Source: a virus. From it: a stretch of 20,276 nucleotides of DNA. Shown here one piece after another: positions 17,413 through 19,928 of this stretch. How positions within the stretch are numbered: the first letter of the stretch is position 1; every line of letters starts with the position of its first letter. Position numbers and translations under genes: made by a program. Location: positions 1 to 20,276 of the IMG/VR virus record IMGVR_UViG_3300023237_000097. One strand, written 5' to 3'. The notes beneath the pieces were generated by a model that worked only from the letters and a program-made list of their open reading frames with translations, made no database searches and had not been told where the DNA came from.

Positions 17413-18357
17413 ATGGCACTAGGTACTAATAATGTAACAACCACTACCGCAGCGAAGTTTATCCCTGAGATTTGGAGTGATGAGATTGTTGCCGCATACA
17501 AGGCTAATCTTGTTGCAGCAAACTTGTTCTCCAAGATGTCTTTCAAAGGCAAAAAGGGTGATGTACTTCACATTCCTAAACCAACTCGTGGAGCAGCCTC
17601 TGCTAAATCAGCATCAACTCAGGTCACACTGATTGCTGCTACAGAGAGTGAAATCCTCGTTAACATTAACAAGCATTATGAATACTCACGTTTCATTGAA
17701 GACATCGTAGAGACACAAGCACTAAGCTCTTTGCGTAAGTTCTACACTGATGACGCTGGTTATGCTATTGCTAAACAGGTTGATACTGACCTTGTACGGC
17801 TTGGTCGTTTGGTTAACGGTGCTACACTTGGCACTGATGACTACGCTACTTCTAACACAGCTACTAAAGCATGGATCGGTTCTACGGGTGCAACTGCTTA
17901 TAACTCTACGTCTTCAAACGCTGCTGCGCTTGCTGATGCAGGGATAAGACGTTCAATCCAAAGGCTCGATGACGCTGATGTACCTATGTCAGATCGTGTT
18001 TTACTTGTTCCACCTACAACCAGAAATACTTTAATGAGCATTGCTCGATTTACTGAGCAAGCGTTCACTGGTGATGTGGGTTCAAGCAACACAATCCGTA
18101 ATGGTTCTGTTGGTGATGTATATGGTGTTAAAGTATTTGTATCTACCAATGCTGACTTTGGTGCAGGTAGTTCAGGTGCTGACCGTATTTGCTTGATGGC
18201 TCATAAAGATGCTTTCTGTCTTGCTGAGCAAATGGGCGTACGTTCACAGACCCAGTACAAGCAAGAGTGGCTTGCAACATTGTTCACGACAGATATGCTT
18301 TACGGTGTAGCTGAGTTGCGTGACGATGCTGCTGTAGCTTTGGCTGTACCTGCTTAA
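17413..18357 (+). CDS. Major capsid protein
   Basis: A 314-residue HK97-fold type capsid subunit. It begins MALGTNNVTTTTAAKFIPEIWSDE and continues with GKKGDVLHIPKPTRG, the N-arm and E-loop region typical of phage coat proteins. It then has a central Ala/Thr/Ser-rich domain, the VLLVPPTTRNTLMSI beta strand and GDVYGVKVFVSTN, which are P-domain features of marine podovirus coats. The C-terminus ends in repeated AVALAVPA. A strong AAGGA ribosome site and the terminator just downstream fit a very highly expressed gene. Confidence 0.93.
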   Translation: MALGTNNVTTTTAAKFIPEIWSDEIVAAYKANLVAANLFSKMSFKGKKGDVLHIPKPTRGAASAKSASTQVTLIAATESEILVNINKHYEYSRFIEDIVETQALSSLRKFYTDDAGYAIAKQVDTDLVRLGRLVNGATLGTDDYATSNTATKAWIGSTGATAYNSTSSNAAALADAGIRRSIQRLDDADVPMSDRVLLVPPTTRNTLMSIARFTEQAFTGDVGSSNTIRNGSVGDVYGVKVFVSTNADFGAGSSGADRICLMAHKDAFCLAEQMGVRSQTQYKQEWLATLFTTDMLYGVAELRDDAAVALAVPA

Positions 18358-18374: not shown

Positions 18375-18405
18375 CTCCCCAGGCTCATAAGGTCTGGGGA
18401 GTTTT
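18375..18405 (+). terminator. Rho-independent terminator after the capsid gene
   Basis: CTCCCCAG (18375-18382) and CTGGGGAG (18394-18401) form a perfect 8-bp GC-rich stem with an 11-base loop, followed at once by TTTT. It lies 17 bases after the capsid stop. The T-run is only four bases, so partial read-through into the riboswitch and fibre genes is likely. Confidence 0.85.
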
Positions 18406-18410
18406 CATAA

Positions 18411-18457
18411 GTCGTTCATCCATCAGGACGGAAGTAGGGAGACCGAAGGAACGCACC
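18411..18457 (+). ncRNA. Glutamine riboswitch (glnA / Downstream-peptide class)
   Basis: Stem P1 is CGTTC (18413-18417) with GAACG (18449-18453). P2 is TCC/GGA around ATCA. The conserved internal segment CGGAAGTA (18429-18436) follows. P3 is GG/CC closed by a GAGA tetraloop, and GAAG follows before the P1 return strand. This order and these fixed bases (CGUUC, CGGAAGUA, GAAG, GAACG) match the glutamine-binding riboswitch known from cyanobacteria and marine metagenomes as I remember it. In the Downstream-peptide subclass it precedes very short ORFs, as here. The CACC after P1 can pair with GGTG overlapping the ribosome site of the following ORF (18476-18479), giving a possible switch by masking translation. 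Sign of regulation not established. Confidence 0.8.
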
Positions 18458-18481
18458 TATACCTTTAGCGAGGAGGGTGAT

Positions 18482-18637
18482 ATGCTTTGGACAAATTACT
18501 GCCGCAAGAACGAGATTAAAAGGCACGAAAGAGATAAGTTAATTAAAATACTCTGGAGAAACATGATGTGGACTAAACCTGAATATACAGAAATGAGATT
18601 TGGATTTGAAGTAACTATGTACATCGCAAATAGATAG
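18482..18637 (+). CDS. 51-residue riboswitch-controlled peptide with PqqA C-terminus
   Basis: The ATG at 18482 has a strong GGAGGG ribosome site directly downstream of the glutamine riboswitch. The frame reads a basic 28-residue leader ([18 protein letters not shown], then helical Lys/Ile-rich) and runs without interruption into a complete PqqA-like sequence. If the long form is made, it is a PqqA with an N-terminal extension. If the leader only couples translation, the short PqqA is made from the internal start. PqqA is the ribosomal peptide from which PQQ is cut after cross-linking. The leader also starts M-x-W-T-x-Y, faintly like PqqA itself. The gene is too short for routine ORF finding. 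Confidence 0.7.
18566..18637 (+). CDS. pqqA: PqqA-like PQQ precursor peptide
   Basis: A 23-residue peptide starting at the second of two adjacent ATGs, 7 bases after GGAG. It begins MWTKPEY, contains GFEVTMY and ends ANR. This is the near-exact form and length of gammaproteobacterial PqqA (about 23 residues, MWTKP..., GFEVTxY..., NR). Glu15 and Tyr19, the two residues joined by the radical SAM enzyme PqqE with PqqD to make pyrroloquinoline quinone, are both present at the usual spacing (EVTMY). No pqqB-E genes occur in the window, so host enzymes would be needed. The peptide could boost PQQ, compete with host PqqA, or bind PqqD/PqqE as a decoy. It lies in frame at the end of the longer peptide gene. 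Confidence 0.85.
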
Positions 18638-18647
18638 GGACAGTTAA

Positions 18648-19928
18648 ATGGCTATATATAGAGGCCCAGGTGGATCAGGAGACGCTACAACAGACGCTGC
18701 TAATCAGGCATCCGTAGCTTCTAACAAGGCTGCTGAGGCCGCTATATCAGCTACCGCTGCCGCTGGTTCAGCCAGTTCTGCTGCAACATCTGCATCTACT
18801 GCAACAACACGAGCATCTGAGGCTTCTACTTCTGCCACTAATGCTTCTAACTCTGAAACTGCTGCCGCAAGCTCAGCAACAGACGCTGCTGCTTCTTATG
18901 ATTCTTTTGACGACAGGTACTTAGGTGCTAAATCATCTGACCCTACCCTTGACAATGACGGTGATGCTTTAAGTGCTGGTGCATTGTACTTCAATACTGT
19001 TTCTAATGTCATGCAGACCTACACAGGTTCTGCGTGGCAGTCCATAAACACTGGTACTGGTCTACAAGCGTCTAACAATTTATCTGATGTATTAAGCGCA
19101 AGTACTTCTAGGGATAACCTAGGATTAACTATAGGTACTGACATCCAGGCTTTTGACTCTGTTCTTGCAGCTACGACTGCATCCTACACTACTGCTGAAG
19201 AATCTAAATTAGCGGGTATCGAGACTGCTGCAACTATAGATCAAACAGGTGCTGAAATTAAGGCTGCTTATGAGGTAGAAGCTAATGCGTTTACTGATAC
19301 TCAGTTTACTAAGCTATCTGGTATTGAGACAAGTGCTACTGCGGATCAAACTGCTGGAGAGATTAAAACTGCCTACGAGAGTAATGCAGATACTAACGCA
19401 TTCACTGACGCAAACAGCACTAAGCTAAGTGGTATAGAAACAAGTGCAGACGTAACAGACGCTACTAATGTGACTGTTGCAGGTGCGTTGATGGATAGTG
19501 AAGTCACTAACCTGGCACAAGTAAAAGCATTTGATACAACAGACTACGCTACAGCTGCTCAGGGGACACTGGCTGATAGTGCTAACCAACCGGCTACCAC
19601 AGTAGCTAAGACATCCTCTACAGGCTCTGCTGTGATGCCTACAGGCACTACGGCACAGAGAGATGTCTCTCCTACAACAGGTAACTTAAGGTTCAATTCT
19701 ACTGATACTTCTTTCGAGGGCTATGATGGCTCTGCTTGGGGTGCTATTGGTGGAGGTGGAGGAGCTTCTGGTGGAGGTTCTGATGCTATCTTTTATGAGA
19801 ACGGTCAGAGTGTCACCACAGACTACACCATTGTAGCTACTAATAATGCAATGAGTACAGGCCCGATAACTATTGATAGTGGTGTCACAGTTACCGTAAG
19901 TTCTGGCGCACGCTACGTTGTAATTTAA
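18648..19928 (+). CDS. Tail-fibre-like protein with repeat shaft
   Basis: A 426-residue protein. Residues 10-85 are almost pure Ala/Ser/Thr with heptad-like spacing, as in trimeric fibre shafts. DDRYLGAKSSDP (88-99) and GALYFNT...YTGSAWQ (111-131) match the conserved attachment-proximal segment of marine podovirus and cyanophage fibres. Residues 181-270 contain two and a half imperfect repeats with TKLSGIETSA and EIKxAYE. RFNSTDTSFEGYDGSAWGAI (348-367) is another small fibre module, followed by a Gly hinge and a beta-rich end. It probably forms part of the receptor-binding apparatus. No chaperone or enzymatic domain is visible. Confidence 0.85.
   Translation: MAIYRGPGGSGDATTDAANQASVASNKAAEAAISATAAAGSASSAATSASTATTRASEASTSATNASNSETAAASSATDAAASYDSFDDRYLGAKSSDPTLDNDGDALSAGALYFNTVSNVMQTYTGSAWQSINTGTGLQASNNLSDVLSASTSRDNLGLTIGTDIQAFDSVLAATTASYTTAEESKLAGIETAATIDQTGAEIKAAYEVEANAFTDTQFTKLSGIETSATADQTAGEIKTAYESNADTNAFTDANSTKLSGIETSADVTDATNVTVAGALMDSEVTNLAQVKAFDTTDYATAAQGTLADSANQPATTVAKTSSTGSAVMPTGTTAQRDVSPTTGNLRFNSTDTSFEGYDGSAWGAIGGGGGASGGGSDAIFYENGQSVTTDYTIVATNNAMSTGPITIDSGVTVTVSSGARYVVI
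19185..19460 (+). repeat. Degenerate internal repeats of the fibre gene
   Basis: About 2.5 copies of a roughly 105-111-base unit coding for (T/F)T..(E/F)xxKLxGIETxAT.DQTx.EIKxAYE. The copies are diverged at DNA level but clear in protein. This is typical of fibre shafts that grow or shrink by recombination. Confidence 0.7.

Follow-up and report, generated by a model that had tools for sequence, protein, structure and literature searches.

What does a tailed phage gain from a gene for PqqA, the precursor peptide of the cofactor PQQ, when the rest of the pathway is left to its host? The window (the whole stretch of DNA analysed) is a virus fragment of 20,276 bases. The preliminary description had reported in its late module a 23-codon open reading frame (ORF) with its own GGAG site, encoding a near-canonical PqqA. 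The ORF and its site were confirmed, and PHROGs placed a capsid gene on one side of it and a tail-fibre gene on the other, in agreement with a late-module location. The features of the region are:

17413..18357, + strand, major capsid protein gene, upstream (PHROG 267 major head protein, 175 bits)
18375..18401, + strand, intrinsic-terminator-like hairpin 3' of the capsid gene (11-pair stem with a T run)
18411..18457, + strand, glutamine riboswitch aptamer RF01739 (53 bits, gathering 35, whole model 1-53)
18482..18565, + strand, short W..YCR-type leader ORF, in frame into pqqA (GGAGGG site 18473-18478)
18555-18558, ribosome-binding site GGAG of pqqA
18566..18637, + strand, pqqA, 23-residue PQQ precursor peptide (PF08042, TIGR02107)
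18648..19928, + strand, tail-fibre-like gene, downstream (PHROG 24456 tail fiber protein, 155 bits)

The end of the capsid gene is 208 nt from the pqqA start, and the end of pqqA is 10 nt from the tail-fibre gene. Other genes in the window include a ribonucleotide reductase with a B12-type insertion domain, ThyX, DNA polymerase, primase-helicase, terminase, and portal.

The peptide matched both curated PqqA families at more than twice their cut-offs. Its score was 49.4 bits (E 3e-13, cut-off 20, full-length) against TIGR02107, an equivalog model for the PQQ precursor peptide, and 43.9 bits (E 2e-11, cut-off 21.1, whole model) against PF08042. The Glu and Tyr three residues apart, which form PQQ, are present. 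Translation of the window placed Glu15 at 18608-18610 and Tyr19 at 18620-18622, so the assignment as a near-canonical PqqA with both residues kept was upheld by the family scores and the codon positions. Judged from its sequence, 18566-18637 (+) is a full-length PqqA, far beyond chance. PHROGs gave no family for the 23-residue peptide. A tblastn search with PqqB, C, D, and E and two PQQ alcohol dehydrogenases of hosts detected nothing in the window, which agrees with the earlier statement that it holds no other pqq gene. Linkage to pqqBCDE, a usual feature of PqqA, was absent from the window and from the viral loci searched. Methylophilaceae normally have additional pqqA copies apart from pqqBCDE, so the missing linkage is compatible with membership in the PqqA family.

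The window peptide was identical (23/23) to PqqA in several Burkholderiales genomes of a 399-genome sample. This sample was the order containing a Candidatus Methylopumilus genome, from which the label Burkholderiales was taken; the label follows from the placement of Methylophilaceae in Burkholderiales by GTDB. The best PqqA identity in a class-wide sample of 369 genomes was no more than 91%. The window gene differed from the compared bacterial genes for the identical peptide at 11-14 codons, and all differences were silent, indicating that the peptide is held constant. The pN/pS ratio was 0.33 over 160 distinct viral pqqA sequences and 0.15 for 43 sequences of the window's type; both ratios cover the positions left free by the search pattern and are rough because silent sites are near saturation. 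At the free positions of viral PqqA, Arg11 was invariant and Phe14 and Met18 were nearly invariant. The DNA search patterns fix Glu15 and Tyr19, and the conservation of these residues was rechecked by a purpose-built profile and by pattern-free matches. Drift of either residue in related phages had been named as evidence against a PqqA role. The profile search found no replacement of Glu15 or Tyr19 in 412 viral loci, in which one copy ran off the contig end ahead of Tyr19. As read from these codon and residue comparisons, purifying selection was shown to act on the phage PqqA peptide.

The PQQ alcohol dehydrogenase model had 2-11 matches, counting fragments, in each of the genomes with the window's peptide, and in one of them (L505) pqqA lies ahead of a pqqBCDE run. 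Going by the peptide, the host of the window phage is probably a Burkholderiales alcohol oxidiser. Methylophilaceae were set aside as its host, since their PqqA match was 74–83% compared with 100% in some other Burkholderiales. No isolate close to the window phage emerged from searches with its terminase and capsid. Three of the genomes with the window's PqqA (L504, L505, and L506) had two or three pqqA copies approximately 5 kb apart on opposite strands.

To compare the insertion site, relatives were collected by their capsid protein, independently of pqqA. Three states were found. The site was empty in L130 and L135, with the order capsid, terminator, tail fibre. pqqA alone was present between terminator and tail fibre in L131, L136, L137, and L142. 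The glutamine riboswitch, leader ORF, and pqqA together occupied this position in the window, L199, and eight others. The terminator-like hairpin was kept in relatives with and without pqqA. Gene order in the three states showed that pqqA was inserted at a defined site beside the capsid gene. The proposed search of metavirome contigs for the 23-residue pattern beside capsid genes was carried out, and pqqA adjoined the capsid gene in 94 contigs among the matches listed from the second scan described below.

A pattern scan of IMG/VR showed pqqA in at least 120 stretches, and a second scan for the [EQK]YTE subtype showed it in at least 119, overlapping the first set. Single linkage of flanking DNA divided the first scan's matches listed, the isolates, and the capsid relatives into 19 groups, one of which is large and possibly chained. 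Besides host-contaminated records, a search of 50,697 phage records found pqqA in nine Methylophilales phage records (MEP401, MEP402, MEP301, Venkman, P19250A, and four Melnitz variants) and in one metagenomic podovirus, which has the same PqqA peptide as Methylophilaceae. Several pqqA-bearing isolate records are labelled complete genomes, and the pqqA-bearing Methylophilales phages fall in several unrelated groups. NCBI taxonomy holds further Methylophilales phage names outside the matches, and carriage is claimed here for the nine records, not for all OM43 phages. No feature names pqqA in any of the nine records. In the Melnitz record inspected, pqqA (L004 3961-4056; MZ577097.1 76100-76195) is covered by a 'hypothetical protein' that was annotated on the other strand, so a real gene was apparently missed by gene calling. 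When the publications on Melnitz, MEP401/402, MEP301, and Venkman were searched by text, phage PqqA was not mentioned in any of them. A further candidate, 'Acinetobacter phage MD-2021a', was discarded as a pqqA phage. Two of its records matched, and the one inspected (L007, CAKLQF020000010.1 104210-112275), of 144 kb, is host DNA that holds ppk and a complete pqq operon.

The aptamer RF01739 scored 50–62 bits in relatives of the window phage. Among the matches listed, the riboswitch motif was present in 64 of the 94 capsid-linked contigs and absent in 30, so the riboswitch is not essential to pqqA. It also lies upstream of pqqA where there is no window-type capsid gene, namely in L531, L510, the L511 group, and L075. 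In L531 and L510, as in the window, pqqA directly adjoins the leader ORF or overlaps with it, whereas a gap ahead of pqqA in the L511 group and L075 makes shared control less sure. In the phage group of the window, pqqA stands behind a glutamine riboswitch and a leader ORF that adjoins or overlaps it, so PqqA translation probably depends on glutamine. Leaders of the W..YCR type are also found behind phage glutamine riboswitches in contigs where no pqqA lies nearby, and the switch may therefore act mainly on the leader. In folding predictions, most of the leader ribosome-binding site was base-paired in almost every sequence examined, whether or not helix P1 was enforced, and no clear on/off change was seen at this site. 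Phage glutamine riboswitches (L328-L443) usually have a short ORF approximately 20–30 nt downstream, and the recurring ORF types include W..YCR, a YRG-motif type, an NP.YP-ending type, and a type with ARKEV.ING.

The leader raises the question of which start codon is used. The in-frame ATG at 18482, with the stronger GGAGGG site, gives a 51-aa reading that includes pqqA, and a further in-frame ATG lies at 18563. The offset from the leader ORF to the pqqA start was mostly 85 nt (range 81–86); in the window it is 84 nt, which makes one 51-aa frame. The in-frame fusion was seen in the window phage, its nearest relatives, and L529, and in most relatives the leader ORF and pqqA overlap in other frames. 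Because the frame relation varies, we take the internal pqqA start as the conserved, functional one; a fused 51-aa leader-PqqA product is possible. The pN/pS ratio of the leader ORF was 0.39 (29 sequences), and Pfam gave no family for two W..YCR leader examples.

In the PQQ pathway, one PqqA is consumed per PQQ, and the remaining Pqq proteins serve as enzymes or chaperone. We consider it probable that the phage supplies this consumed substrate of host PQQ synthesis, which would keep PQQ-dependent alcohol oxidation going in infected cells. On this view, a genuine PqqA gene was acquired by a tailed phage that infects a PQQ-using bacterium, and the phage would make the peptide in infection. Host PqqE/PqqD would cross-link Glu15 to Tyr19, and other host enzymes would complete PQQ. 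More PQQ would sustain PQQ-dependent alcohol/methanol dehydrogenases and so provide energy for virion production, to the benefit of the phage, if, as we infer, PqqA supply is limiting for PQQ in infected cells. The enzymes turn over, whereas each PQQ uses up one PqqA, which may be why PqqA alone is carried. In 3.3 Mb of viral loci, searches for PqqB-E and methanol dehydrogenase detected none. Surveyed Methylophilaceae have 3–12 pqqA copies and usually one pqqBCDE (PMC4109929); we counted 1–11 pqqA matches in each Methylophilaceae genome.

The suggestion that the virus supplies a RiPP cofactor precursor was strengthened as to the precursor itself, by family membership, 23/23 identity, silent-only differences, and conserved Glu15/Tyr19; the restriction of carriers among phage records to methylotroph phages and one metagenomic podovirus also favours it, and its metabolic effect stays conditional. 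The same suggestion had named host dehydrogenases for alcohol or glucose as beneficiaries. The more probable target is the oxidation of alcohol or methanol, given that the isolated pqqA phages infect Methylophilales and that the Burkholderiales with the identical peptide match the PQQ alcohol dehydrogenase model. More tentatively, and with less than even confidence, we propose that phages of PQQ-dependent bacteria commonly carry a consumable cofactor precursor alone as a metabolic lever, and that in some lineages a riboswitch and leader ORF make its synthesis dependent on glutamine, which would link the host's energy yield to nitrogen status while virions are assembled.

Other readings of the gene were weighed; two of them, reuse of the fold and competition for PqqD/PqqE, had been raised in the preliminary description and gained no positive support. 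A PqqA fold may have been repurposed for another phage task, such as lysis timing, signalling, or defence, through host PqqD/PqqE or without them, and a PqqA-annotated RiPP family was reported to be co-expressed with defence systems in bacteria (PMC11118758). We regard this as unlikely, since a general phage function would not track hosts rich in PQQ enzymes, and the carriers among phage records are methylotroph phages and a metagenomic podovirus with the Methylophilaceae peptide. A peptide carried alone would equally suit a competitor, so phage PqqA might be a decoy that occupies PqqD/PqqE, lowers host PQQ, and slows periplasmic oxidation. An inhibitor would be expected to lose the reactivity of Glu15/Tyr19, however, and the peptide is identical to the bacterial one with both PQQ-forming residues kept, which makes a decoy quite improbable.

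Slightly less credible still is that pqqA is mainly part of the riboswitch-leader unit, or a spacer before the tail-fibre gene, with its PqqA chemistry incidental. In the window clade the gene is indeed packed closely between the leader ORF and the tail-fibre gene, but it is also found at this site where riboswitch and leader are missing, is found elsewhere in unrelated phages, and is conserved at the protein level. The ORF is very short and one 'phage' record with pqqA proved to be host DNA, yet a chance ORF or host contamination has a negligible probability in view of the family scores, the silent-only divergence, its constant position next to the capsid gene in the 94 contigs among the matches listed, and the occurrence of pqqA in phage isolate records, several of them labelled complete genomes. 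Supply of the consumed precursor remains our preferred reading.

Cyanophage photosystem genes such as psbA are phage copies of a host component that sustain host energy metabolism. PqqA resembles them in that host energy metabolism would be kept running, and differs in being the precursor of a small-molecule cofactor rather than a photosystem protein. The preliminary description knew of no established function for a phage PqqA, and this was superseded by a 2020 report of the Lake Baikal T4-like virus population VP_266, which encodes PqqA and methanol dehydrogenase (PMC7678222). The PqqA of VP_266 is likewise phage-encoded and was proposed to support methanol oxidation of Methylophilaceae hosts. 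VP_266 is T4-like and has a viral methanol dehydrogenase, whereas the window phage has pqqA alone and a different capsid and replication set; its peptide is identical to a non-Methylophilaceae Burkholderiales PqqA and lies behind a glutamine riboswitch. pqqA also appears in a list of viral genes in a 2026 paper. Compared with bacterial PqqA (TIGR02107, PF08042), the window peptide is a full-length match and residue-by-residue identical to some Burkholderiales copies, but its gene is phage-encoded, lies away from pqqBCDE, and has a riboswitch and leader ORF upstream. The riboswitch belongs to the same aptamer family as the glnA RNA motif RF01739 and the Melnitz ssrA riboswitch (PMC9004378), the latter also phage-borne, and these phage-borne aptamers lie upstream of short ORFs. 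The Melnitz riboswitch was described as controlling tmRNA (PMC9004378) and cellular glnA RNAs are linked to nitrogen genes (PMC2864571), whereas the riboswitch of the window precedes a leader ORF and pqqA.

A phage methylotrophy gene set including PqqA is thus already known from one report. New within the literature searched are the recurrence of pqqA alone across many phage backgrounds, the unannotated pqqA in cultured methylophages, a phage lineage with a Burkholderiales-type peptide, and the link of pqqA to a glutamine riboswitch. At 72 bases, pqqA would rank among the smallest phage metabolic genes, and standard gene calling overlooks it. The gene points to PQQ, and hence methanol/alcohol oxidation, as a putative bottleneck on which viruses would act in aquatic bacteria. 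Cultured phage-host pairs for work on pqqA are OM43 with Venkman, Melnitz, MEP301, and MEP401/402.

Further elements were observed in pqqA-bearing phage contigs, including a permuted tmRNA in L052 (4022-4393) and a manA RNA in L106 (7442-7646). A similar sequence (TAATGATT ... GTTTAAATA) was found upstream of pqqA in L096, L089, L075, L106, and the L511 group. It is followed by a short gene unit and then a hairpin, and may be a phage promoter.
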